Below are positions 254 to 13,158 of a DNA stretch of 36,366 bases, piece by piece (the stretch's first letter is position 1; every line of letters begins with the position of its first letter). This DNA comes from an uncultured beta proteobacterium (lineage in GTDB: Bacteria; Pseudomonadota; Gammaproteobacteria; Burkholderiales; Burkholderiaceae_C). The position numbers and the translations under genes were made by a program. Location: positions 1 to 36,366 of the forward strand of contig CAIWPS010000797.1 of NCBI GenBank assembly GCA_903914615.1, read 5' to 3'. The notes below the pieces were generated by a model. The model did not search any database. It was not told where the DNA came from and saw nothing but the letters and a program-made list of their open reading frames with translations.

Positions 254-877
254 TCAGGCGAATGCCTGGGTTGCTGCCTCGGCGTACTGCTGGCGCAGGT
301 CGGCCTGCTCCATCGCCGGGCCGTTGATCTGCTTGGTGATCGACCCCCACATGGAGGCGTCCGCGAGTTCGTTGCAGTGCCGCGTCTTCCAGAACCACGC
401 GGCCACAAGGGCGGCGTCTGCCGGGTCGGACAGCAGCCACGGCTGATCGAGGTACGGCCGGGCCATGGCCGTCGCGGCGTCGGCCACATTTCCGCGGCCG
501 GTGAGCATCACGAGACCGCGGCCCCTGAACATCCATCCGTCGCCGGTGTCGGCCGGGCCGTTGCCCATGCGGTCGCTGTAGACCGCCAGGGCCAGGGCCC
601 TCGGGTTGCGCACCAGGGTCGAGGCCTGCTGCAGCGACGTGACCTCTTCGGAGAACACCGCGCGGATGCGCTCCGGAGTCGTGTAGTAGAGGTTCTCCTC
701 GAGGACCGTGAAGTTCGCGCTCTCGACGCGCATCTGCCCGATGAAGGCGCCGACACGGGCCGGGGTGTCGATGTCGTACCTGTCGCAGGCGAATTGCAAT
801 GCGTCCTCGAACTGCCGGGCCTGAGTCGGGTGCAGGCCCGCGGAGACCAGGGTCGCGACGGTGATGTCTTGGGTCAT
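254..877 (-). CDS. GH19 chitinase/lysozyme-like endolysin
   Basis: MTQDITVATLVSAGLHPTQARQFEDAL...RVGAFIGQMRVESANFTVLEENLYYTT...GDGWMFRGRGLVMLTGRGN; typical GH19 endolysin motifs. ATGA overlap with upstream gene favours the start at 877 over the longer ORF start at 1081. Confidence 0.9.
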   Translation of the reverse strand: MTQDITVATLVSAGLHPTQARQFEDALQFACDRYDIDTPARVGAFIGQMRVESANFTVLEENLYYTTPERIRAVFSEEVTSLQQASTLVRNPRALALAVYSDRMGNGPADTGDGWMFRGRGLVMLTGRGNVADAATAMARPYLDQPWLLSDPADAALVAAWFWKTRHCNELADASMWGSITKQINGPAMEQADLRQQYAEAATQAFA

Positions 878-1086
878 GGTGGACCTTTCGCCTCCAGGTG
901 CCGCTGGTGCGCATTGGCGGCGATGTACGCCGCGGTGGTGGCCGTCACGACGCTGGCGAATGCGCCATCGCCGAGGTGCTCGTGTGCCCTCAGCCAGACC
1001 ACGCTGGCGTGACAGAAGACGGTCAGCAGAAAACGCCGGCCGCCCAGCAGATCCAGCCAGCGGCAGGCCAACGAAAACCACTTCAC
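874..1086 (-). CDS. putative holin-like small membrane protein
   Basis: VKWFSLACRWLDLLGGRRFLLTVFCHASVVWLRAHEHLGDGAFASVVTATTAAYIAANAHQRHLEAKGPP; GTG start overlapping the upstream stop (GTGA); position in lysis cluster. Confidence 0.55.
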   Translation of the reverse strand: MKWFSLACRWLDLLGGRRFLLTVFCHASVVWLRAHEHLGDGAFASVVTATTAAYIAANAHQRHLEAKGPP

Positions 1087-1376
1087 GGCTTGCGCGAGGC
1101 TCGCTCGATCAACCGGTCGAGCTTGGCGCTGAGGTCGCGCATGTCGGCGCGCAGCAGCGCCAGCGCTTCGGTCATCGCCCTGTCCTGGCGCTCGTCTCGG
1201 TCGTGCTGCTGCGCAATGGTGATCTGCGTGTCGTGCTCGAGCTGCGTCACACGCGCCTCGATGCGTCCGAGGTACCAGATGCCGCCGGCGCCTTGCGCAA
1301 GCAGGGCCAGGATGATGCTGATCGGCACCTTCTTGTCGAGGTGCCAGCCTTCGGGCGCCCCAGCCCGCTGGATCAC
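1083..1376 (-). CDS. small membrane protein with one TM and coiled coil (holin/spanin-like)
   Basis: VIQRAGAPEGWHLDKKVPISIILALLAQGAGGIWYLGRIEARVTQLEHDTQITIAQQHDRDERQDRAMTEALALLRADMRDLSAKLDRLIERASRKP; GTG start with 4-bp overlap to SGNH gene stop. Confidence 0.55.
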   Translation of the reverse strand: MIQRAGAPEGWHLDKKVPISIILALLAQGAGGIWYLGRIEARVTQLEHDTQITIAQQHDRDERQDRAMTEALALLRADMRDLSAKLDRLIERASRKP

Positions 1377-2104
1377 AGCGCGCCTCCTGCGCGCGCGACC
1401 TGCAGCGCCAGCGACACCGCCCCGGGCGCCATCGGATGCACCCCGTCCGAGGTGTAGATCGCAGCCGCCCAGTCCGGCCACGCCGCCCGGGTATCGACCG
1501 CCCCGCCGGCCAGCAGCGCCGCGTTGAGGGCCGCCAGGCGCACATCCGCATCCGTCAGCCCGAAGACCGCCGTGGCGGCCGTCACAGGCGGGTAGGTCAG
1601 CACCAGGACCTGGATGCCGGCCGCCTGGAGCGTCGCCCGGGCCTGGGCCACGCAGGACGCCACCGAGCCCGGGGTCACGCCGTAGAGCATCACGTCGTTG
1701 ATGCCGATGAGCAGGATGGCGAGCTGAGCGCGCGAGTCGATGACCTGCTGCAGGCGGCCTAGAAGGCCCCTGGGGACGCCATCAAACACTCCCCCGACCC
1801 ACGGGGCCTGCGCGGTGCAGGTATCGCCGCCGCGGCCAAGATTCGCCTGCACGACCCATGTGCCGCTCGTGGCCTCGGGCAGGTAGGCGGCCCAACTTGT
1901 GGAGCTTTGTGCAGCGGTGCAATCGGCCAGCGCTTGGCCGGCAACGCATAGGCCAGTGCGCAATGTGATGCTGTCGCCGGCGGCGACTACGGAGGTAAGC
2001 GAGCCAGCGCTCGCTGCGTCTGAGCCGCCGCAGCTCGAGAGCACCATCGCGAGAGCGCAAACAGCCAGTCGCGCGACAAGTTCAAGCATTCCCGGGCCCT
2101 TCAT
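1373..2104 (-). CDS. SGNH/GDSL-family hydrolase, predicted lipoprotein
   Basis: Signal and lipobox LAMVLSSC; block I AAGDSIT, block III LLIGINDVM, block V DGVHPMAPGA. Confidence 0.85.
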   Translation of the reverse strand: MKGPGMLELVARLAVCALAMVLSSCGGSDAASAGSLTSVVAAGDSITLRTGLCVAGQALADCTAAQSSTSWAAYLPEATSGTWVVQANLGRGGDTCTAQAPWVGGVFDGVPRGLLGRLQQVIDSRAQLAILLIGINDVMLYGVTPGSVASCVAQARATLQAAGIQVLVLTYPPVTAATAVFGLTDADVRLAALNAALLAGGAVDTRAAWPDWAAAIYTSDGVHPMAPGAVSLALQVARAGGAL

Positions 2105-2256: not shown

Positions 2257-3009
2257 ATGTCAGGCAAACCTTCGGCGGCAACAGAGCGGGCCCTGGCCCG
2301 AGTCCGGTCGGGATCTCCGGCGCGCGCCGCCGCTCGAGCAGAGGGCTTGTCGGCAAGCACTGTCTTTCGAGCGCTGGCCAAGACGCGCGGCGGCAGCGGC
2401 CCGCGAATCGTCATCGCGGGGTGCGGCGCGCTCGGCCGCGAGCTCCGCGGTTGGGTTATCCGTGCGCGCCCCGGGGTCGATGTGGTCTTCCTGGACGACG
2501 CCTATCTGCCGGAGGACGAAAGCAGCGAGGCGCGCGGCATCGTCGGCAAGCTCGATGCTTCGTCGCTGCGCGAAGGCGAAACGGCGCTGCTGGCCATCAA
2601 CGACCCACCGGCTCGTGAACGCGCCGCCGAGCGCTTCGCGCCACAGCGCGTGACTCGCTACGTCGACCCGACCGCCACCATCGGAGATGCGGCGCTCAGC
2701 GAGGGCTGCATCCTGCTGCCTTTCACGCTGCTCAGCGATCGCTGCAGGATCGGTCGCCACGCCATCGTCAACACCTACAGCTCAATCGGCCACGACGCGG
2801 TGGTGGGCGACTTCTGCACGCTCTCGAGCTATGTGTGCCTGACCGGGAGAGTCAAGGTCGGGCGCCGGGTGTTCTTCGGAACCGGCGCAAAAGTGGCGCC
2901 TGATGTCGAAATCGGCGACGACGCGCACATCGGCGCGGGTGCGATGGTGCTCAAGAATGTGGCCGCCGGCGCCAGGGTGTTCGGCAACCCGGCGCGCCAG
3001 GTCGCATGA
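2257..3009 (+). CDS. HTH-domain + NeuD/PglD-like left-handed beta-helix acyltransferase fusion
   Basis: MSGKPSAATERALARVRSGSPARAAARAEGLSASTVFRALAKTR (HTH-like), then PRIVIAGCGALGRELRGWV (PglD_N-like) and hexapeptide repeats IGRHAIVNTYSSIGHDAVVGDFCTLSS...IGDDAHIGAGAMVLKNVAAGARVFGNPAR. Confidence 0.85.
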   Translation: MSGKPSAATERALARVRSGSPARAAARAEGLSASTVFRALAKTRGGSGPRIVIAGCGALGRELRGWVIRARPGVDVVFLDDAYLPEDESSEARGIVGKLDASSLREGETALLAINDPPARERAAERFAPQRVTRYVDPTATIGDAALSEGCILLPFTLLSDRCRIGRHAIVNTYSSIGHDAVVGDFCTLSSYVCLTGRVKVGRRVFFGTGAKVAPDVEIGDDAHIGAGAMVLKNVAAGARVFGNPARQVA

Positions 3010-3896
3010 GGCCCCACTTGAACGCCGGCTGGCTGCTGGCAGCGCACCGCTGCGAGCTCCTGCAGCCCGGGGACTTCGTCAACCTGCCGATTTGCTGGCC
3101 GGCGTCCGAGCTGGTGGTGGCCAACGTGGAAGGCCAGGTGCACGCCTTTCCCAACGCATGCCCTCACCGCGGCGCGCGCATCTACACCGATCTGGCCGGC
3201 AACATGCCTCCCGTGTGTCGTTACCACGGCCGGCTGCTGCGCCCAGAGCAGACGAAGACCTACCACACGCGCTGGGCCGGCGACTGGCTGTTCGTGTGTG
3301 TGGCCGATGACATGCCGGCGCTGGAGGACGCGTTCTTTCTGCACGATTCGCCGCCGCCGCGGCGTCACTCGACGCTGCAATACGTCTACCCGTGCCATTG
3401 GCGCGTTGCCGTCGAGAACGCCATTGACAACGAGCACGTCGCACACGTGCACGCGGCGTCCCTGGCGCGCCTTGGCCTGTCGCGCACGAGTCTCGTGACG
3501 CGCGCCAGCGGAAGCTCGTGCGAGTTCTTCGCTTCGCAGCAGTCGCCGCGCCTGGACGCGATCGGACGCACGATGCCCTGCAGCGATGCCTTCGACTACG
3601 CCCATGCGCTCCTCTACCCCTGGGCGGCCGTCTCGAGCACTCGCGGCTGGATCTACTCGCTACAGCACTACTTCCCGAGGCAAGACGGCAAGACGAGCTT
3701 CGTCAGCCGACTGTTCGTCCAGGCCGACGCGCCGCCGCATGCCGCCGCCCTGTTCGACCAGGTCGCAGCTGTCAGCGCGCAAGTGTTCCGGGAGGACGCC
3801 GAGGTGTGCGCGTTGCTGCCGGTGGGCGACGTCGGCAAGCTCGGGCCGGCCGACGATCGAGTCGCGCATTTTCGGCGCGACGGGTACCGAGGATGA
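3006..3896 (+). CDS. Rieske [2Fe-2S] non-heme iron oxygenase (ring-hydroxylating alpha-subunit-like)
   Basis: Rieske motif CPHRG-(15)-CRYHG (CxH-x16-CxxH) and mononuclear-iron motif DNEHVAHVH (D-x2-H-x4-H). Confidence 0.88.
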   Translation: MRPHLNAGWLLAAHRCELLQPGDFVNLPICWPASELVVANVEGQVHAFPNACPHRGARIYTDLAGNMPPVCRYHGRLLRPEQTKTYHTRWAGDWLFVCVADDMPALEDAFFLHDSPPPRRHSTLQYVYPCHWRVAVENAIDNEHVAHVHAASLARLGLSRTSLVTRASGSSCEFFASQQSPRLDAIGRTMPCSDAFDYAHALLYPWAAVSSTRGWIYSLQHYFPRQDGKTSFVSRLFVQADAPPHAAALFDQVAAVSAQVFREDAEVCALLPVGDVGKLGPADDRVAHFRRDGYRG

Positions 3897-4108
3897 TGCC
3901 CGACGAACGCATCGTGGGTTTTGTGGGCACTTGCCGCATAGGACCGCAGAAGGCCGGCGTCACGCTTGGCCCGGTCGATGTGATCAAGCTGCCGGGGCTA
4001 CACGCGCTCGAGCTGCTGCGCGCCGCGCGCGATGCGTGCGACCTCACTGGTGCCGAGGTGCACCGCATCTGGGGCGGCCCTTTCGTGCCGCAAAGGCTGG
4101 TTCGATGA
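3893..4108 (+). CDS. hypothetical protein, 71 aa
   Basis: MMPDERIVGFVGTCRIGPQKAGVTLGPVDVIKLPGLHALELLRAARDACDLTGAEVHRIWGGPFVPQRLVR; ATGA overlaps on both sides. Confidence 0.65.
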   Translation: MMPDERIVGFVGTCRIGPQKAGVTLGPVDVIKLPGLHALELLRAARDACDLTGAEVHRIWGGPFVPQRLVR

Positions 4109-5184
4109 TTCGCGTCCTGATCCCTTGCATGCCCAGCGCAGACGACGTGCTGCCCTACCTGCGGCGCATCGACAGGGCGCGCATGTACAGCAATGGCGGC
4201 CCGCTGTTGCATGATCTCAACGGGCGGCTTACTTCGCTGCTGCAGCAGCCAGCCCGGGCCGTCAGCACCGGCACGGCGGCGCTGGAGCTGTCGCTGCGAT
4301 CGCTGCGCTTGCCCTCGGGATCCCCGGTTCTGTTGCCCAGCGTGACCTTCATCGCAAGCGGCCTGGCGGCGCTCAACGCGGGACTGCGGCCGGTGATCAT
4401 GGATGTGCACCCGCGCACCTGGCAGCTGGATCCGGAAACGGCGGCCGCGCAGTGGTTCTCACTTGGCTTCAACGTCGGCGCGATCATGCCGGTGGCTGCT
4501 TTCGGGATGCCGGTCGACATCGACGCGTGGCGCTGCGTGGCTGAGGAAACCGGCGCCCAAGTCGTCATCGACGCCGCCGGCGCGCTGGTGGAGCAGGCGC
4601 CCAGCAGCGCGCCGCAAACGCTGACTTGCTACAGCCTGCATGCCACGAAATTCATCGGCGCGGGCGAAGGCGGCGTCGTGTGCACGGTCAACGAAGGTCG
4701 ACTGAAAGCCGTCGAGGCCATGTCCAGGTTCGGCGATGGCGGCACGAATGCCAAGCTCAGCGAGTACCACGCTGCCGTGGCCCTGGCCTCGATGGAGCCC
4801 GATGCCGTGCAGCACAAGCACGCCAGGACCAAGCTAGTCGCAGACCGCTACACCGAAGGCCTGCGCCGAGTGCCCGGCATTGCGGTGCAGCGGGATCCGA
4901 GCGCGCTTTCGACAATGCTCGTGGTCAAACTGCCGCGAGGAAGCGATGCGTTGCTGGTGGCCGACGCCATGGCCCACCGCGGCGTGGAGACCAAGCGCTG
5001 GTACTCACCATTCCTGCACGATCACCCGGCGCTGGCCAGCTACTGCGCGGGGGCGGTGCCTGTCGCTTCGGCTTTGGCGCAGCGCCTGCTCGGGCTGCCT
5101 TTCCATCCCTTCATGTCCGCGCTCGACGTGACGACTGTCTGCGGCGCGCTTCACGAAGTTCTCGCACTGACGACGGCCGTATGA
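4105..5184 (+). CDS. DegT/DnrJ/EryC1/StrS-family PLP-dependent aminotransferase
   Basis: STGTAALELSLRSL; LPSVTFIASGLAALNAGLRPVIMDV; PLP-lysine region YSLHATKFIGAGEGGVV. Confidence 0.92.
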   Translation: MIRVLIPCMPSADDVLPYLRRIDRARMYSNGGPLLHDLNGRLTSLLQQPARAVSTGTAALELSLRSLRLPSGSPVLLPSVTFIASGLAALNAGLRPVIMDVHPRTWQLDPETAAAQWFSLGFNVGAIMPVAAFGMPVDIDAWRCVAEETGAQVVIDAAGALVEQAPSSAPQTLTCYSLHATKFIGAGEGGVVCTVNEGRLKAVEAMSRFGDGGTNAKLSEYHAAVALASMEPDAVQHKHARTKLVADRYTEGLRRVPGIAVQRDPSALSTMLVVKLPRGSDALLVADAMAHRGVETKRWYSPFLHDHPALASYCAGAVPVASALAQRLLGLPFHPFMSALDVTTVCGALHEVLALTTAV

Positions 5185-7172
5185 CAGAGACCGAAATCGC
5201 AACATCCTCTGCGCCCGCGAAGGAAGAACCGCAGCAGACTCTCGCGCCGGTGATGCCGCCAGGCGCTGGCGCCAAGCCAATCACCATCGTCAATGTGCGC
5301 CTGGAGGACTTCGAGCGCGCGGTGCTCGAACGCCGCGGGGAGGACGCCGGCCAGTTGCTCATGACCGCGCTGCGTCGCATCAAGCAAGGTGCCGAGTTCA
5401 TCGGCTATCCGGCCGACGCGCGCCTGAAGCCGCACCTGTATACCCGGCTCACAACAGCGATCCTGTACCTGTTCATGGACAAGCAGTTTCAGCTCAGCCA
5501 GGACGGATTCGACCTATTCGCCAGCGAGCACGCCATCATCGACGTGGCCTTCCGCGCGAGCCTTCACGGAAGCAGCGACCACGGCCTGGGCTGGGCGGCG
5601 ACGAACGTGGAAGAGGTCGACCGCAACAAGATGAAGTTCGGAGACGGCTCGGCGTTGATCAAGTTCTTGCTGACCTATTCGATGCGCTCAGGCTTCACGC
5701 TGAACTTCCGAGAGACTTTCGTGAGGTCGCCGCAGCAGCTTTTCTGCCTCTGGGCGGGCATGATCTCGCCACTCATCACGACAAGCGTGGTGGCGATGGA
5801 ACGCAGAGAGGAGCTGCTGGGCCTGCACGAGCTGTTCTCGGACGTGCGAGCCAGCGACGCCGTGCTGCCGACGCTCAGCGACGCCTACATGTACACGAGC
5901 TACGGCCTGCGCGCGGACAAGCACGAGGCCAAGGCGACGATCAGCCGCATCCTCGCGCGCCGCGTGTCCGAAATGCCCGACGCGCTGCCATCGAAGAAGC
6001 AGCTCGCGCGCCGTCGCCACCGCGGCTTGCAGATCGACAAGAGCGGCGGCAAGCCGACGGTGCTGGTGTGCTGCGAGTGGTTCACGAGCCACCACGCGAT
6101 GTTCCGCTGCTATGCGCCGATCATCAGGCAATTGCGCGGCCGTTTCCGCCTGGTCGGCATGTGCCGCGAATCCGACATCGACGACGCCGGGCGCGCCGAA
6201 TTCGACGAGTTCATCCCAGTGCCGATGGCGGACATTCGCATCGATCGCTTGGCGCAGCGCATCAATGGCCTGGCGCCCGACATCATCTTCTACCCGAGCA
6301 TCGGCATGGCCATGTGGTGGGTGGCGCTGTCGAGCGTGCGGCTGGCGCCTATCCAGTGCATGGGCCTGGGGCATCCCGCGTCAAGCCGCAGCCGGGCGAT
6401 GGATTACGTGATCTGCGAGGCGGGCGCGGTGCACGACCAAGCCCTATTCAGCGAGCGCATCGTGACGATGCCGGACAGCTCCGCTCGCTACCTGATGTGG
6501 CCCGGCATCACCATCCCGAAGCCAGCCCGCCAGGTCATGGCCGAGAGGGTCAGGGTCGCGGTGCCGGCGATGGTGTGCAAGCTCAACGCCGTATTCATGC
6601 TCACGCTCAAGCAGATCGGCGAGAAGGCGCGCCGGCCCGTCGAATGGCACCTGTTCCCGAACATGATCGGGCTGAACGCCTACCAGGCCGCGCGCGAGAT
6701 CCGCGACTGGCTGCCGGATGCAGTTGTCCATGACCGCGCCGCCTACGACGTCTACCTGGACCGCCTGGCGCACTGCGATTTGCACCTGTGCACCTTTCCC
6801 TTCGGCGGGACCAACTCGAACATCGACAGCATGCTGCTCGGCATCCCGATCGTCTGCAAGGAAGGCGCGGAGCCGCACGAGCGCTTCGACGCGATGATGT
6901 GTCGGCACGCCGGGCTGCCCGAGTTCTGCATTGCCAAGTCGATCGACGAATACATCCAGGCGGCAGTCGACCTCATCGATAGCAACGACCTGCGCCAGTC
7001 GTTGAGCCGGCAATTGCTGGCCGCGGATCTGCGCGGGCTGTTCTACGGTGATCCGCCGCCTGACCGACGAGACGCGTTCGCGCGCGCCATGGGCTTCGTA
7101 TTCGAGCGTCACGAAGCGATGCAAGACAGCGAACAGCGCATCTGGCACATCGAGCCGAAGGAGGCCGCGTGA
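5181..7172 (+). CDS. HMW1C-like glycosyltransferase (GT41; cytoplasmic protein N-glycosyltransferase family)
   Basis: 663 aa. Motifs match the remembered HMW1C/ApNGT pattern in order: DIIFYPSIGMAMW...RLAPIQCMGLGHPASSRSRAMDYVICE, VCKLNAVFMLTLKQI, CTFPFGGTNSNIDSMLLGIPIVCKEGAEPHERFDAMMCRHAGLPEFCIAKSIDEYIQAAVDL, GLFYGDPPP. N-terminal helical region also resembles the family. ATGA overlap fixes the start at 5181. Confidence 0.92.
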   Translation: MTETEIATSSAPAKEEPQQTLAPVMPPGAGAKPITIVNVRLEDFERAVLERRGEDAGQLLMTALRRIKQGAEFIGYPADARLKPHLYTRLTTAILYLFMDKQFQLSQDGFDLFASEHAIIDVAFRASLHGSSDHGLGWAATNVEEVDRNKMKFGDGSALIKFLLTYSMRSGFTLNFRETFVRSPQQLFCLWAGMISPLITTSVVAMERREELLGLHELFSDVRASDAVLPTLSDAYMYTSYGLRADKHEAKATISRILARRVSEMPDALPSKKQLARRRHRGLQIDKSGGKPTVLVCCEWFTSHHAMFRCYAPIIRQLRGRFRLVGMCRESDIDDAGRAEFDEFIPVPMADIRIDRLAQRINGLAPDIIFYPSIGMAMWWVALSSVRLAPIQCMGLGHPASSRSRAMDYVICEAGAVHDQALFSERIVTMPDSSARYLMWPGITIPKPARQVMAERVRVAVPAMVCKLNAVFMLTLKQIGEKARRPVEWHLFPNMIGLNAYQAAREIRDWLPDAVVHDRAAYDVYLDRLAHCDLHLCTFPFGGTNSNIDSMLLGIPIVCKEGAEPHERFDAMMCRHAGLPEFCIAKSIDEYIQAAVDLIDSNDLRQSLSRQLLAADLRGLFYGDPPPDRRDAFARAMGFVFERHEAMQDSEQRIWHIEPKEAA

Positions 7173-7624
7173 AATTCGAACTCGAACTCGTTCGCGCCGG
7201 GCGCCCCATCGACGCCACCGTCGCGCGACCCGTGAAAGAGGTCGCCGTCGGCGTGCGCAAGGCGCTGCGCGAGACCACCGATGCGCTGCTGGTCGATGGC
7301 ATCCACCACGGCAAGCTGGCCGGCGTGGCCAAGCAATGTTGTCGCACCATGCTCGTCGTCGCCGGCGTCCTGGACGCCTGCATGGTCGAGCCTGAGATTG
7401 CGGACTTCGCCGAGGCGGCCATCAACCTGGTCGAGGGAGCGCGCGGCGTCATGGATAGAGGCTTGACGCTGCACGACTGGCCGACGATCAACGCGGGCGC
7501 CGTGATGATGGAAGTCACGATGCGCGGCATCTGCGCTTGCATGGGCGTCGACTACGAAGCGGCGATGCGCGCGGTTCACGACGGGAGCGAACCGGTGCTG
7601 CCCAAGATCAACGATGGAGCCTAA
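7169..7624 (+). CDS. hypothetical protein, 151 aa, phage-type unknown
   Basis: MKFELELVRAGRPIDATVARPVKEVAVGVRKALRETTDALLVDG...; GTGA overlap with upstream gene. Confidence 0.6.
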   Translation: MKFELELVRAGRPIDATVARPVKEVAVGVRKALRETTDALLVDGIHHGKLAGVAKQCCRTMLVVAGVLDACMVEPEIADFAEAAINLVEGARGVMDRGLTLHDWPTINAGAVMMEVTMRGICACMGVDYEAAMRAVHDGSEPVLPKINDGA

Positions 7625-7625
7625 G

Positions 7626-7850
7626 ATGACCTCACACCGTAATGCGCTGCTTGCGAAACTGTCCGAAATCCTGGAGTCCGAAATTCAGCCAACGACGGCG
7701 CTCGATGCAAACGGGCTCTGGGATTCTCTGGCCGTCGTGTTGACGGTCGCGGCCATCGACGATGTGTGCCAGCGCGAGGTCGACGGTGTTGCGCTGTCCA
7801 AGTGCGAGACGGTCGAGGAAGTGCTGGCGCTGGCGGGACTCGGCGCATGA
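7626..7850 (+). CDS. acyl carrier protein
   Basis: MTSHRNALLAKLSEILESEIQPTTALDANGLWDSLAVVLTVAAIDDVCQREVDGVALSKCETVEEVLALAGLGA; DSL phosphopantetheine site; GGAG SD precedes 7626 (alternative start 7614). Confidence 0.85.
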   Translation: MTSHRNALLAKLSEILESEIQPTTALDANGLWDSLAVVLTVAAIDDVCQREVDGVALSKCETVEEVLALAGLGA

Positions 7851-8833
7851 CGACAACCCGCCGAGGCAACTTCTGCGAGACGATCGGTGCGCACGTGTGC
7901 GGCGTCGTCACTGCCGTGCCGCAGCTCGTCGTCACCGACGCCATGCTGGGCGACCACGCGGCGGCGGCGTCCGAGGCCGGCGCCATCACGGGCGTGCGCA
8001 CGCGTCGCCGCGCGTCGGCCAGCCAGACCACTGAAAGCCTGTGCGCGATCGCAGCGCGGCGGCTGCTCGAGCAGCTCGGTTGGTCGCCGGGCTGCGTCGA
8101 CGCCCTGATCCTCGTGACCCAGACGCCAACCGACGCCATCCCTTCAGGCGCCCACCGCCTGCACGGCGAACTGGCACTACCCAAGCACTGCGCGGCGATC
8201 GAGGTCAACTGGTCGTGCTCGGGCTACGTGCAGGGCTTGTGGCTTGCATCGCGCCTGGCCGAAGGCAATCGGCGCGTGCTGCTCCTGGTCGGCGACACCT
8301 CCAGCCGCATCGTCGACCGGGCCGACCGGGCTACGGGCCCGCTTTTTGGCGACGCCGGCAGCGCTACGGCGGTGCAAGGCGGCTCGCTGAAGAGCCACTT
8401 CGTCATGGGCAACGACGGCCGCGGCGCGCAGCGCCTGCACCGCGAGCACGGCAAGCCGCTGGCGATGGACGGAGCCTCCGTCTTCACATTCGCTTTGCGC
8501 GAGGTTCCCGGGCTCATTGAGGACGTCCTGGACATCGCGCCGAGTCCCGACTACCTTCTGTTCCATCAGGCCAACCGGCTGATGCTCGAGCAGGTCATCA
8601 AGCGCGCGCAGCTCAAGGAGCGCTTCACGCCGGCGCAGATCCCGACGAACCTCGCCGACTACGGCAACTGCTCGTGCGCGAGCATCCCGCTGCTGCTGTG
8701 CGACAAGGTGAGTCCGCTGGCGGCCAAGCGCAGCCGGTTCGCCCTGTTCGGCTTCGGTGCCGGCTGGGCCTGGGCCGGCGCGGTAGTCGGCGGCGCGCAC
8801 CTGGACGCGGTTGAGCTGATCGAGGCGGCGTAA
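7847..8833 (+). CDS. beta-ketoacyl-ACP synthase III (KASIII/FabH-like)
   Basis: Cys in EVNWSCSGYVQGL, His in LLFHQANRLMLEQV, Asn in NLADYGNCSCASIPLLL: intact Cys-His-Asn triad. ATGA overlap with ACP. Confidence 0.92.
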   Translation: MTTTRRGNFCETIGAHVCGVVTAVPQLVVTDAMLGDHAAAASEAGAITGVRTRRRASASQTTESLCAIAARRLLEQLGWSPGCVDALILVTQTPTDAIPSGAHRLHGELALPKHCAAIEVNWSCSGYVQGLWLASRLAEGNRRVLLLVGDTSSRIVDRADRATGPLFGDAGSATAVQGGSLKSHFVMGNDGRGAQRLHREHGKPLAMDGASVFTFALREVPGLIEDVLDIAPSPDYLLFHQANRLMLEQVIKRAQLKERFTPAQIPTNLADYGNCSCASIPLLLCDKVSPLAAKRSRFALFGFGAGWAWAGAVVGGAHLDAVELIEAA

Positions 8834-9525
8834 TGGCTCTGCGCTACCTTGTGACGGGCTCGACCGGCGGCCTTGGCCTGGCTGTGGTCGACGAGCTGCG
8901 CCGCATCGACCTCGATGGCGCGGAGGTCGAGGTCGAAAGCCTGAACCGCGCCGACGCCGACTTCAGCAGCCCGCAAGCGGTCTCGAACGCCATCCTGGCC
9001 CGTTCTGGCGCGCTGGGCCGGGGTTTCGATGCGATCGTGCATTGCGCCGGAGCGGCGGCCATCCAGCCACTTCGGATGCACCGCGACCACACCTTCGCCG
9101 ACATGATGGTAGCGGCCTCTTGTGCCTACGGCATTCTGCGCGCCGCGGCGTGCGACGCCGTGTCTGAAGGCGGCAGCATCGTGCTGATGTCCAGCGTCGC
9201 CGCGCACCGCGGCACGGCCGGCATGGCGGCCTACAGCGCCGGCAAGGCAGCCGTCGAAGCCATGGCGCGCTGCGCCGCCATCGAACTCGCGCCGCGCGGC
9301 ATTCGGGTGAACTGCGTCGCCGCCGGCGCCTTCGAATCGCCCATGCACCAGCGCATCACGAAGCGCATGCCGGCAGCGTCGCGCGATGCGTACGAGGCGC
9401 GCCACCCGCTAGGGTTTGGCGACGCACGGAATGTCGCGCGCACCGTCGTGCACCTTGTGAGCGAGGGGTCGAGCTGGACCACCGGCTCGACGGTCGTGGT
9501 CGACGGGGGTTTCCTGGCCCGGTGA
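8833..9525 (+). CDS. short-chain dehydrogenase/reductase (FabG-like SDR)
   Basis: TGSTGGLG nucleotide-binding motif, VHCAGAA, SSVAA...YSAGKAAV active site, NCVAAGAFESPM, C-terminal GSTVVVDGGF. Confidence 0.93.
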   Translation: MALRYLVTGSTGGLGLAVVDELRRIDLDGAEVEVESLNRADADFSSPQAVSNAILARSGALGRGFDAIVHCAGAAAIQPLRMHRDHTFADMMVAASCAYGILRAAACDAVSEGGSIVLMSSVAAHRGTAGMAAYSAGKAAVEAMARCAAIELAPRGIRVNCVAAGAFESPMHQRITKRMPAASRDAYEARHPLGFGDARNVARTVVHLVSEGSSWTTGSTVVVDGGFLAR

Positions 9526-9526
9526 T

Positions 9527-10330
9527 TCAGCCGTGGCTCGGAAAGGCTGCGGTCGGCAATGCGAAAGCGCGCCCGACGCCCACCGTCATCCGAAAGTCGT
9601 CCATGTAGGTCGGCTGCGGATGGGTGTTCGAGCCGCAGATGCACACGGCAGTGGTGCCGATGGCGTACAGCGCCGCGGTGCCGACCGTTGAAGCCGTGTC
9701 CTGCGAGCCGCCGATGCCGATGGCGAATGTGCTTCCCACGCGCCGGCACTGAACGAAGTTCCAGGCGTTGAGCGTCAACGCGCCCGAGCTGACCAGGCTG
9801 GCGTAGGTCGACCCGCTCGTGCCCTTGCACAGGAAGCCGACCTTCCCGGCGCTCGTGAGGTACACGGTCACGTCGTAGGCCAAAAGTTCATTGGTCGCGC
9901 CGATGTACAGCTCGGTCTGATTGGCGAACGTCGTCGGGTAGACCCAAAACTCGATGGTGAAGTCCGAGGAGCCGACCGCCCAGTGCGGGCTGCTGGTGCC
10001 CTGAATGTTGAAATTGGACTGGTCGCTGACGTGCAGCGCATTGCTGCCCCACTTGACGACGCTCGACTGAAGGTTGCCGTAGGCCGTGGTGTTGCCGAAG
10101 ACGCCCGGCAAGCCCAGGGGCCCGCTGTCTACGCACGGGCCCCCAACGTTCGCATCGAAGTGGTACAGCGCTACCACATCGCTGTAGTACGCATCGCCCG
10201 GAGACTGCCGGCGCATTGAAGCGATCACACCAAGCAGCGCAGGATGAATGTTGCCGCGCTGCGGCCGCCTGGGAGCACAACGCGTGCGCGAGTCGAATCG
10301 ACGCGGCACGATCACGTCGTGTCGCCCCAC
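9527..10330 (-). CDS. LamG/concanavalin-like jellyroll virion protein
   Basis: VALYHFDANVGGPCVDSGPLG...SSDFTIEFWVYPTTFANQTELYIGATN...LTLNAWNFVQCRRVGSTFAIGIGG...YMDDFRMTVGVGRA. Start uncertain. Confidence 0.8.
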   Translation of the reverse strand: MGRHDVIVPRRFDSRTRCAPRRPQRGNIHPALLGVIASMRRQSPGDAYYSDVVALYHFDANVGGPCVDSGPLGLPGVFGNTTAYGNLQSSVVKWGSNALHVSDQSNFNIQGTSSPHWAVGSSDFTIEFWVYPTTFANQTELYIGATNELLAYDVTVYLTSAGKVGFLCKGTSGSTYASLVSSGALTLNAWNFVQCRRVGSTFAIGIGGSQDTASTVGTAALYAIGTTAVCICGSNTHPQPTYMDDFRMTVGVGRAFALPTAAFPSHG

Positions 10331-13158
10331 AGGTCCCAGATGTCGGTGCTGGCGCAGAACAGTGCCGCCGGGCTGTACTGCGCGCGCAGCGTGTTGCTGC
10401 TGACGTTGTTGACCGTGGTCACGCTGGCGTTCTGCGCGCTGACGGTCACCGTGCCAGAGCCTTGGCGCACGACGATGACCGAGCTGCCATTGCCCGCGGC
10501 GACGTTGGCGTGGGTAGGCACGGTCAGCACCAGGTTGCTCGCGCTGTTGAAAACGATCGCCGTCGGGGTGTTGAAGTCCGACAGCGCCAGGGTGTAGTTG
10601 GCGCTCTGCGCGTTGATCGTGATCGAGGGGCTGCGCCAGGTCACCGCGCCGGCCGCCATGGTCAACACCTGGCCGTTCGCGCCAGGCGGAATGTCGGTCG
10701 TGGCAAGGGCACGGAAGGTCGGGGCAGCAGCATTCCCGCTGGTCGGCCCGGCAAAGACCGCCGCCGCGTTTTGGCTGGCCAGCGCCTGCGTGAGGTTGCC
10801 GGAGCTCGTCACCTGCGCCGCGTTCGCCGCGAAGAGCGTCGCTGGCAGGTTCAGGCCCACCGAGGTGACGCCCAGCGTCGGACTCAGCGTGATGTCCACC
10901 GTGTCGCCGTTCGGGAAGGCCACGCCTCCAGCCTTAAAGGCCACCCCGAAGGCGTAGTAGCCGCCGCCGCTGTTGGCGGTGGCCGAGGTGACCGTGTACG
11001 TCGCCCACTTGGCTGTGTCAGCCACATCGCGAATGTCCAGTAGTCCGACCTGGCCGAGGCCGGCGAACAGCGTCGTCATCGCCACGCCATCGGCCGTCGT
11101 GTCGTCGATGTAGATGTGCGCAGCATTGGCCTGGACCGCGTTGTCGAATCGCAGCTTGCCGGCGCCGGGATCGGCGTTCGTCGTGCTGCTGGTGTCGACC
11201 GTGTACGCGTACCCGGTGCCGTTGGTGACCACCTGGGCAGCCACGTTGAAGGTGTAGGGGTTGACGGCGCTCAGCGACTGCAGTGCGCCGCCGACGGTGT
11301 TGAAGCTCAGCAGCTTCACGTAGATCGTCGTGCCGAACCAGGACTGGGCCACGTCGAAGGCGCCGACCGAGGCGTCCAGGCGCATGAACGCCGCGCCGGT
11401 GAGGTGCGCCTGGGCTTGCGTGCCGTCGCGGGCTCGACGGAGGTAGCCGGTGAGGTTGTAGTTGTATGCCGAGGTTAGGTTGGCGGTCGAATAGTCGATC
11501 AGCTCATTGGTCGCAAGATTCGACCCGACGATGACCGAAAGCGTGCCGCCTGCGTCGGCCACGGAGTTGGCGGCGCTGGTCAGCACTCCGCTGCTGGCGC
11601 TCAGGTTGCACGACAGCGTGCTGGTCGTGTCCGGGTCGACCACCAGCGGCAAGTTGGCGGTGAGGGTGCCGAATCGCGCTCCGCTGGTCAACGTTCCGAC
11701 CATCGCATAGGTGGCGTTGTCGTGGCTTACCCATACCTGCGCGCCGCCCCAGTTGGCGCCGCCTGCGCTGCCGATCCACACCTGCGGCTGGCCGCCGGTC
11801 AGCGCCAGCGGCGGCTGGAACATGACCGGCGCGACGGCGTTTCCTGGCGCCACGCCAGCGGCCGGGGTGTGACCGCTCACCGGCGCCGCCGAATAGACGC
11901 CGCCCGTGGACACGCCCGTCGAAAGCTCTTCGGCCTGGATGGCCAGGTTGCCGTTCGCGTCCTCCTCGATGCTGATGATGCGCACCGGGAAGTTCACCAG
12001 GCCGAGTTTGGCGTCGGTGATCGCGACGATGTCCATCGGATCGAGGCGCCCATAGCGCCAGCCCAGAGTGAACGAGTAGACGTTCCTGATGTACAGCTGC
12101 CGCTGCAGGATCTGCTGGGCGACAAAGCGCCCGATCGCAGGGCTGCAGATCGAATGCGCGGTGACGGTGCTCATCACTCGCAGCCCATAGGTCTCGATGG
12201 CGAGCTGGTCGCTGGCCTGGGCAATGTAGATGTTGTACTGGTTGCTGCGGTCGTAGCACTCGACATTGACCTGGTTGTACGCATCGGCTTGGCGAGACCG
12301 GTCGCAGGTTACCGGGTCGGTGCCGGCGGCGGCAATGAAGTCGTCGTACCCAAGCGAGTACTGAACCGTGAGCGACGGCGACCAGCCGCCAATGGCTTGA
12401 TCCGCGTATGGGACGATCTGCAGCAGTCCATCGGCAAAGATGGCGTTCGCGTTGCCGATCTGCAGCAGGTCGGTCAGCATCGAGGACATCGGCGTCTGGC
12501 TCGTGTAGGCCGGGCTGATGACGATGTTGGCCGCCGCGCAGTAGTTGAAGAAGTTGCTGAGGTCGCCAAGTTGCGCGCTGGGCCAGCCGACGCCGAAGTT
12601 CGCATCCGTCAGCAGCGTGGCGACGACGTTGGCAACGTTGGCATCCGCGCCGCCCAGCAGGCCCTGGACCTCGAAGGTCATGTTCGGCAGGCTGCTGCTG
12701 CTGCCAAGCGCCAGCGCCGGCGAACACAGGTACGCGTTGCCGCGGTAGGCCAGGTCCTGGCCGGCGTGGTTCGTCGTGAGGTAAGGCCAAGGCGTCTGGC
12801 TGTAAGTGCCCTGGAAACTCGTCAGGCCCTGCGCCGCGGCTGTGGTGACGTTGGAGTCGACCCAGACCTGCCCCACGAAATTCGCATTCGCCGCAGGCCC
12901 TTCGCAGAGCCCCCAGACCACTGCGGCCGTGTAGGTGTAGCTCGTGCTGGTCTGCGTCGTGCCGCCGCCCTTGCCGCTGCTCTGGCTGGTGGTGGAAGGG
13001 ATGGCGGTGAAATCGCCATACCACAGCAAGTTCGACGCAATGCGCGTCTGGCCGAAGACGATGGGCACCGGCAAGCCCTGCGTGCTGTTCTGCAGCGTCA
13101 GCGCGCCGATCACATTATCGGTGTTGCTGATCGTCTTCTTCTTGAACAAACCGCCCAT
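10312..13158 (-). CDS. phage tail tip / host specificity (J-like) protein, 948 aa
   Basis: MGGLFKKKTISNTDNVIGALTLQNSTQGLPVPIVFGQTRIASNLLWYGDF...; YGRLDPMDIVAITDAKLGLVNFPVRIISIEEDANGNLAIQAEEL; position after NlpC/P60. Confidence 0.85.
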   Translation of the reverse strand: MGGLFKKKTISNTDNVIGALTLQNSTQGLPVPIVFGQTRIASNLLWYGDFTAIPSTTSQSSGKGGGTTQTSTSYTYTAAVVWGLCEGPAANANFVGQVWVDSNVTTAAAQGLTSFQGTYSQTPWPYLTTNHAGQDLAYRGNAYLCSPALALGSSSSLPNMTFEVQGLLGGADANVANVVATLLTDANFGVGWPSAQLGDLSNFFNYCAAANIVISPAYTSQTPMSSMLTDLLQIGNANAIFADGLLQIVPYADQAIGGWSPSLTVQYSLGYDDFIAAAGTDPVTCDRSRQADAYNQVNVECYDRSNQYNIYIAQASDQLAIETYGLRVMSTVTAHSICSPAIGRFVAQQILQRQLYIRNVYSFTLGWRYGRLDPMDIVAITDAKLGLVNFPVRIISIEEDANGNLAIQAEELSTGVSTGGVYSAAPVSGHTPAAGVAPGNAVAPVMFQPPLALTGGQPQVWIGSAGGANWGGAQVWVSHDNATYAMVGTLTSGARFGTLTANLPLVVDPDTTSTLSCNLSASSGVLTSAANSVADAGGTLSVIVGSNLATNELIDYSTANLTSAYNYNLTGYLRRARDGTQAQAHLTGAAFMRLDASVGAFDVAQSWFGTTIYVKLLSFNTVGGALQSLSAVNPYTFNVAAQVVTNGTGYAYTVDTSSTTNADPGAGKLRFDNAVQANAAHIYIDDTTADGVAMTTLFAGLGQVGLLDIRDVADTAKWATYTVTSATANSGGGYYAFGVAFKAGGVAFPNGDTVDITLSPTLGVTSVGLNLPATLFAANAAQVTSSGNLTQALASQNAAAVFAGPTSGNAAAPTFRALATTDIPPGANGQVLTMAAGAVTWRSPSITINAQSANYTLALSDFNTPTAIVFNSASNLVLTVPTHANVAAGNGSSVIVVRQGSGTVTVSAQNASVTTVNNVSSNTLRAQYSPAALFCASTDIWDLWGDTT

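Follow-up and report, generated by a model that had tools for sequence, protein, structure and literature searches.

We propose that a nine-gene operon on the forward strand (nucleotides 2257-9525) of contig CAIWPS010000797.1, which was analysed over its whole length of 36,366 nucleotides (nt) and is referred to here as the window, is a phage-borne protein-glycosylation cassette. On balance, we favour the reading that its products synthesise an acylated viosamine-type sugar, with which a protein, most likely one of the virion, is then decorated. The proposal is drawn from sequence and structural models, namely the protein families and their catalytic residues, the operon structure, the conservation and modularity of the genes in other phages, a phage-only clade of the glycosyltransferase (GT) and the fold of that enzyme.

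The operon consists of nine open reading frames (ORFs), all at coordinates which agree with a first-pass annotation of this DNA, and overlap occurs at each of the eight junctions (4, 4, 4, 4, 4, 11, 4 and 1 nt), at five of them as ATGA. Hidden Markov models from Pfam, NCBIfam and PHROGs assigned a family to seven of the ORFs, in agreement with that annotation; the 71- and 151-amino acid ORFs matched no family in these three collections, and the helix-turn-helix (HTH) domain which had been read in the NeuD protein gave only a weak match (Pfam E 0.02). The genes are as follows:

2257..3009, + strand: NeuD/PglD/VioB-type left-handed beta-helix acyltransferase with an N-terminal HTH-like extension (NeuD_NnaD, TIGR03570)
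3006..3896, + strand: Rieske non-haem iron oxygenase, oxygenase component only (Pfam Rieske and Ring_hydroxyl_A)
3893..4108, + strand: 71-amino acid ORF, the least certain gene (4-nt overlaps on either side)
4105..5184, + strand: DegT/DnrJ-type pyridoxal phosphate-dependent sugar aminotransferase (PF01041, E 6e-50)
5181..7172, + strand: GT41 HMW1C-like glycosyltransferase of the phage clade (HMW1C_N and Glyco_transf_41; NGTferase, E 5.5e-85)
7169..7624, + strand: 151-amino acid all-helical protein (protein F, family A8; AlphaFold2 model, without a family match)
7614..7850, + strand: acyl carrier protein, ACP (PP-binding, 18.3 bits, cut-off 20.8; phosphopantetheine serine in GLWDS38L)
7847..8833, + strand: beta-ketoacyl-ACP synthase III, KASIII, proposed to be VioS-like (ACP_syn_III and C-terminal domain)
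8833..9525, + strand: short-chain dehydrogenase/reductase, SDR, FabG/VioR-like (adh_short_C2, E 4.5e-37)

Alignment-based scans of IMG/VR revealed 19 virus contigs which carry a related GT41 and which, together with the window, make up the 20 phage loci considered below (loci are given L numbers). Outside the window, genes were called with a simple codon-usage caller and their exact starts may be off.

The proposed sugar pathway

In the pathway that we propose, dTDP-4-keto-6-deoxyglucose would be supplied by the host dTDP-glucose 4,6-dehydratase (RmlB) in the case of the window, or by a phage RmlB in its relatives. The DegT protein would aminate C4 to give dTDP-4-amino-4,6-dideoxyglucose (viosamine); KASIII, ACP and the SDR would provide a 3-hydroxyacyl group of short chain length, the likeliest being 3-hydroxybutyryl; and the NeuD/VioB-like enzyme would place this group on the 4-amino position. 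The Rieske protein, with a host reductase and ferredoxin, would further oxidise the sugar or the acyl chain, and GT41 would, in the cytoplasm, link the completed sugar to a protein, for which a phage structural protein made at the same time is the most likely candidate. By analogy, the product of the window is probably dTDP-4-(3-hydroxybutanoyl)amino-4,6-dideoxyglucose, then oxidised further. We infer the substrate chain, the acyl length, the order of the steps and the donor identity; the substrate of the Rieske enzyme is, with the virion target, the least certain part of the scheme.

A sugar of the viosamine type is the most likely one because the closest gene set backed by genetics and mass spectrometry is that of a Pseudomonas syringae island, the DegT proteins score best against DesI, and the cassettes of relatives carry a dTDP-glucose 4,6-dehydratase. 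No dehydratase is encoded in the window, and the first-pass annotation had concluded that a host nucleotide sugar would be needed. This agrees with the presence of RmlB both in cassettes of relatives and in the bacterial bin that holds the window (G000), where it shows 47% identity to RmlB of phage locus L029.

In P. syringae pv. tabaci 6605, the viosamine island (vioA, vioM, vioT, vioS, vioB, vioR and acp) makes dTDP-4-N-(3-hydroxybutanoyl)-viosamine for flagellin, as judged by mass spectrometry of mutant glycans and by homology (PMC3927599). The flagellin glycan carries 4-N-(3-hydroxybutanoyl)-2-O-methyl viosamine, the vioA, vioB, vioR, vioT and vioM mutants having been analysed (PMC3927599). 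Both this island and its homolog, the glycosylation island of P. aeruginosa PAK, correspond to the cassette in their DegT protein, VioB/NeuD protein, KASIII, 3-ketoacyl-ACP reductase and ACP, a five-part match judged from families and active-site residues and not from alignment to the P. syringae proteins. The vio island is chromosomal and flagellin-directed, and its VioT, a protein of 1,173 amino acids, caps rhamnose, whereas the cassette lies in a phage genome and has GT41 in place of VioT. Furthermore, the island possesses a methyltransferase (VioM) and no Rieske protein is listed for it, whereas the window cassette encodes a Rieske protein and Pfam revealed no methyltransferase. The protein families, the residues and this likeness support the earlier reading of the operon as an acylated amino-sugar pathway joined to a cytoplasmic-type protein glycosyltransferase.

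Among the individual enzymes, the NeuD-like protein is a proposed N-acyltransferase acting on the 4-amino sugar. It scored 155 bits (E 1.7e-45) against TIGR03570, just below the cut-off of 160.8, while its L031 orthologue scored above it (172); the N-terminal extension is shared with L024 and L031. The DegT protein, proposed to be a 4-aminotransferase acting on dTDP-4-keto-6-deoxyglucose, has a conserved lysine motif (SLHATK182F), and its best NCBIfam model is DesI (E 7e-41, below the equivalog cut-off), the dTDP-4-keto-6-deoxyglucose 4-aminotransferase; the other phage DegT proteins also match DesI best. KASIII, a proposed VioS-like acetoacetyl-ACP synthase, retains the catalytic Cys124-His240-Asn274, and the SDR, a proposed 3-ketoacyl reductase of the FabG/VioR type, has active-site residues (Ser, Tyr134 and Lys138) which are retained in L004. 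These families and residues also bear out the 3-hydroxyacyl donor which the annotation had ascribed to KASIII, ACP and SDR. ACP homologs occupy the equivalent position in L004, L024, L025, L028 and L031, and one is also present in L060.

The Rieske protein is proposed to oxidise the sugar or the acyl group. Its Pfam matches to Ring_hydroxyl_A and Rieske have E-values of 5e-7 and 1e-6, respectively, and its PDB profile matches are alpha subunits of ring-hydroxylating oxygenases. The ligands C52/H54/C71/H74 and D141-x2-H144-x4-H149 are retained in seven phage copies, residue 141 being D or E. No dedicated reductase or ferredoxin partner was found among the cassette genes, and a host partner is assumed.

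The GT41 glycosyltransferase

The product of the fifth gene is predicted to act as a GT41 protein glycosyltransferase. Its NGTferase match spans residues 42-627, and phmmer comparison with the HMW1C-like N-glycosyltransferases (NGTs) AaNGT and ApNGT gave E-values of 1e-66 to 1e-72 at 28-33% identity. The AlphaFold2 model (pLDDT 86) has AaNGT as its best PDB match (TM 0.80/0.85) and TM values of 0.78-0.87 against AaNGT and ApNGT, the matches to OGT and SPINDLY being much weaker. The model places the enzyme in the HMW1C sub-fold, that is an N-terminal all-alpha domain (AAD), not tetratricopeptide repeats, followed by GT-B. The phage enzyme thus shares the AAD and GT-B fold with ApNGT (3Q3E) and AaNGT (8P0O/8P0Q) along its full length; those enzymes are linked to adhesin secretion genes, whereas phage GT41 is linked to dTDP-sugar genes.

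Residues of 11 phage GTs (A7) were mapped onto the AaNGT ligand complexes (PMC10507012), whose numbering is used here. The donor core (K440, N520, D524, R280, H276, G369 and H370) is retained and Y500 is found in all but one, while three donor-site changes (S277 to A, T437 to M and H494 to R) are fixed across the phage clade. Two of the three acceptor contacts are lost, R177 being replaced by L, M, T, G or A and H214 being deleted; D215 is mostly retained. In AaNGT, R177 and D215 read the Ser/Thr at +2 of N-X-S/T, and R177A and D215A are inactive (PMC10507012). Since donor-site positions are replaced and acceptor contacts lost, these sequences suggest that phage GT41 probably recognises another kind of acceptor and may also use another donor. 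An altered donor would fit the genetic link of GT41 to dTDP-sugar genes. With 286 bits the protein falls short of the 1000-bit cut-off of the NCBIfam equivalog for UDP-glucose:protein N-beta-glucosyltransferase, and because R177 and H214 are absent we do not file it as an N-glycosyltransferase, nor do we assume sequon glycosylation. The earlier description of an HMW1C-like GT41 is therefore kept for the fold, as predicted, and for the donor core, but not for the N-X-S/T-reading Arg177 and His214. A GT41 with altered acceptor and donor residues is of interest for cytoplasmic glycoprotein production.

Related cassettes in other phages

Two classes of related cassette are seen in the IMG/VR contigs. 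Class 1 has the order NeuD-Rieske-(small ORF)-DegT-(RmlB)-GT41-F-ACP-KASIII-SDR. It is collinear in L004, L024, L025 and L031, partly so in L028 and L033 (each truncated at a contig end), and rearranged in L060. Rieske and KASIII genes co-occur in all six class 1 loci in which both halves are visible (the window, L004, L024, L025, L031 and L060). Since this collinearity is shared by independent contigs whose proteins are about 30-60% identical, chance linkage is excluded. Class 2, found in L027, L029, L030 and L056 and in shorter forms in L026, L057 and L058, has the order DegT-RmlB-GT41-NeuD-AMP-ligase-Gfo/Idh-ACP, together with a methyltransferase (Methyltransf_24) and a GT2/radical S-adenosylmethionine (SAM) protein; it represents the same sugar core with another acyl module (AMP-ligase, ACP and Gfo/Idh). 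L032 carries an AMP-ligase with GT41 and F. The core kept across the phages is DegT, GT41 and NeuD, often accompanied by RmlB (8 of 20 loci), and the KASIII module is exchangeable. RmlB of L029 passes the curated dTDP-glucose 4,6-dehydratase model TIGR01181 (372.7; cut-off 365.1).

In a tree with 18 bacterial homologs, the 18 phage GTs of sufficient length form one clade (support 97/99), within which the six class 1 enzymes (98/98) and the seven class 2 enzymes (100/100) group together. Because the clade is phage-only and the GTs group by class, the sequences indicate that phage GT41 is an established viral lineage whose diversification went along with that of its sugar module. In a survey of 399 same-order genomes, the window copy alone fell in the phage score range, the best other match having an E-value of 6e-143.

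Two other uses of the pathway may be weighed against this distribution. In the first, the product of the cassette would be a small molecule, free or bound to ACP, such as a signal or a bioactive metabolite, which the GT then glycosylates. KASIII, ACP, SDR, Rieske and DegT proteins are indeed frequent in natural-product clusters; the conserved phage core of DegT, GT41 and NeuD and the exchangeable KASIII module speak against it, as does the fact that GT41 acts on proteins, and the cassettes showed neither an exporter nor a natural-product synthase. We consider this very improbable. More improbable still is that the sugar serves the hypermodification of phage DNA and not of protein. A 5-hydroxymethyldeoxyuridine (5-hmdU) DNA kinase and a thymidylate-synthase homolog lie immediately upstream of the cassette in L030 (4153-6035) and L033 (3177-5170), suggesting DNA hypermodification genes nearby, but such genes were seen in just two of the 20 loci, and the window proteins that were tested include none. 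Moreover, characterised GT41 enzymes modify protein, and the fold match is to HMW1C and not to DNA glucosyltransferases.

Protein glycosylation encoded by tailed phages has been little explored. Searches for GT41, Rieske and KASIII in 50,697 annotated phage records revealed no such cassette, and GT41 itself was without a match; because the same query found HMW1C-type genes of ~31% identity on plasmids, this negative does not reflect insensitivity. Nor was a paper describing this cassette in a phage found in the openly licensed literature, and the first-pass annotation likewise knew of no described phage operon with this combination. Phage-encoded glycosyltransferases modify capsid or tail proteins in mycobacteriophage virions; to our knowledge those systems have no dedicated acyl-aminosugar pathway or Rieske enzyme. 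Mimivirus makes its own viosamine (UDP-Vio4NAc), which is displayed on the surface of its particle (PMC9614988). It resembles the phage cassette in its virus-made 4-amino-4,6-dideoxyglucose, but differs in being a eukaryotic giant virus which employs a UDP-sugar, a polysaccharide and different enzymes. The kinds of enzyme, viosamine islands, HMW1C enzymes and viral viosamine are all known; for their combination in a tailed phage we found no record. Here phages carry a whole sugar and acyl biosynthesis with a dedicated transferase, re-assorted between two acyl chemistries.

Several minor observations concern the relatives. In L060 a PhyH (phytanoyl-CoA dioxygenase) gene (9147-9980) precedes GT41 and the rearranged cassette ends in the Rieske gene, giving two oxygenases. 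The GT2 glycosyltransferase-radical-SAM protein of class 2 (L027, 9738-11903, with homologs in L029, L030 and L056) is a conserved fusion. A bacterial contig of Candidatus Halobeggiatoa (L046, 179-7556) carries a class 2-like cluster of DegT, GT41, NeuD, AMP-ligase, Gfo/Idh and ACP genes; its GT is ~30% identical to the phage GT and falls outside the phage clade, and the cluster is a possible source or sister of class 2. HMW1C homologs occur on Escherichia coli plasmids, for example in enterotoxigenic E. coli H10407, and HMW1C-type genes on E. coli and Salmonella plasmids (H32-H34, H37 and H39) lie under features labelled 'cobalt ABC transporter permease', which looks like an annotation error copied from record to record.

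With regard to the two small ORFs, the 71-amino acid ORF has a low coding score, is the least secure of the nine and gave no homolog by tblastn; small ORFs lie at its position in L004, L025, L031 and L033, with similarity that is at most weak. Protein F, modelled by AlphaFold2 as a helical bundle (pLDDT 90), accompanies GT41 in 9 of the 20 phage loci. It has no Pfam, PHROG or PDB match, and MazG/NTP-PPase-like folds recur only among its weak fold matches (E > 0.1). A protein of the PRA-PH (phosphoribosyl-ATP pyrophosphohydrolase) fold is encoded upstream of the F-containing cassette in L059 (6257-6844).

Candidate acceptors and the phage context

The cassette had been placed between lysis and tail-tip genes, both on the minus strand, and the families of its flanking genes confirm this:

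254-880, minus strand: endolysin (phrog_181, E 1e-52)
1373-2104, minus strand: SGNH/GDSL lipase-like protein of the lysis region
9527..10330, minus strand: LamG/ConA-like tail protein, convergent with the cassette, a candidate acceptor (Laminin_G_3, E 2.7e-10; baseplate/structural PHROGs)
10312..13158, minus strand: J-type tail-tip/host-specificity protein, a candidate acceptor (phrog_1101, E 5e-102)

To the right of the tail tip follow the tape measure, portal, Mu-F-like and terminase genes.

Members of the J-type family occur in 9 of the 15 virus contigs that bear a cassette. In L062 the gene order is portal, ..., major head protein, ..., GT41, small ORF, SU10 adaptor, RmlB, with GT41 overlapping its neighbours; GT41 also overlaps the SU10 adaptor gene in L061, and in L063 the major head protein gene lies just upstream of it. 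A tyrosine integrase occurs in one of the 15 cassette contigs and a serine recombinase in none of the 15, although many contigs are fragments and the absence of integrases is weak evidence. Based upon the position among head genes in a sister lineage and the rarity of integrases, we place the virion clearly ahead of flagellin as the target; as integrases are rare, members that appear to be virulent would have little to gain by altering a host organelle.

The same chemistry could act on a host surface protein, above all flagellin, as a lysogenic or early-infection conversion which, for example, excludes flagellum-binding phages. We regard this as unlikely, yet as a strong competitor of the virion reading. 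Bacterial GT41 homologs adjoin fliC/fliD/fliS in L050 (4249-11812, a Pseudomonadales metagenome-assembled genome (MAG) in which DegT is also adjacent) and L053 (5595-11725, Idiomarina piscisalsi), and seem to form a family of flagellin GT41 enzymes that has received little description; the vio island, whose sugar pathway is the closest characterised one, serves flagellin; and the host bin G000 encodes flagellins, one of them on a contig which has GT41-like genes of its own. Further points against a virion acceptor are that L061 and L062 represent a divergent GT subclade, that the window cassette forms an operon of its own, convergent with the adjacent tail-tip region and not inside the tail operon, that the integrase evidence is as limited as stated above, and, as regards the acceptor rule, the absence of R177 and H214. 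On the other hand, the phage GTs form a clade apart from the bacterial ones, those of L050 and L053 being ~30% identical to the phage GT and outside that clade, and neither the head-cluster position of GT in L061, L062 and L063 nor the rarity of integrases fits flagellin well.

N-X-S/T shows a 1.54-fold enrichment in the J proteins of cassette phages (0.87 in cassette-less homologs). As the reversed motif [ST]-x-N is similarly enriched (1.45-fold), which points to a local N/S/T-rich composition, this signal is not sequon-specific and was dropped as evidence for a virion target.

If the virion is the acceptor, the cassette bears upon the disguise of the particle or the tuning of receptor binding by sugars; were it flagellin, this would be a new kind of conversion. 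We tentatively extend the virion reading to a broader proposal, possible but short of probable, in which a phage-specific GT41 branch coats the virion with self-made, acyl-diversified dTDP-4-amino-4,6-dideoxy sugars as exchangeable caps, one class of which is oxidised by a phage-only Rieske enzyme. If true, phages would possess a glycan coat of modular make-up, to be compared with the diversity of O-antigens, and both the donor and the acceptor rule would be without precedent among HMW1C-like enzymes.

The window is an entire contig (C797) in a 5.9-Mb bacterial bin. It shows no terminal repeats or circularity, and is an incomplete phage or prophage genome. Its incompleteness and its binning in a bacterial MAG could suggest a hitchhiking or decaying host island, or a mis-assembly, without function in the phage. 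This is the least probable of the explanations considered and is already largely refuted: the catalytic residues are intact, the eight junctions overlap, the GC content of the cassette is about that of the phage flanks, phage genes lie on both sides, and the same cassette occurs in several virus contigs. In addition, the Rieske family was not found at E <= 1e-50 in the other 368 of 369 class-level genomes.

Promoter and terminator counts were not above shuffle expectation, and PADLOC anti-phage defence models matched none of the nine proteins. A search of 60 same-genus genomes for close relatives via the tail-tip protein gave just one homolog (34%), in the same bin (C819). This J-type tail tip (G000:C819:17301-19643; L073) belongs to a second, divergent phage, and served as a control taken to be cassette-less, its neighbourhood not having been checked gene by gene. 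With regard to the SGNH/GDSL lipase-like gene at 1373-2104 in the window, Acinetobacter phages which share the J protein also have SGNH/GDSL hydrolases annotated, in their case near the tail genes.

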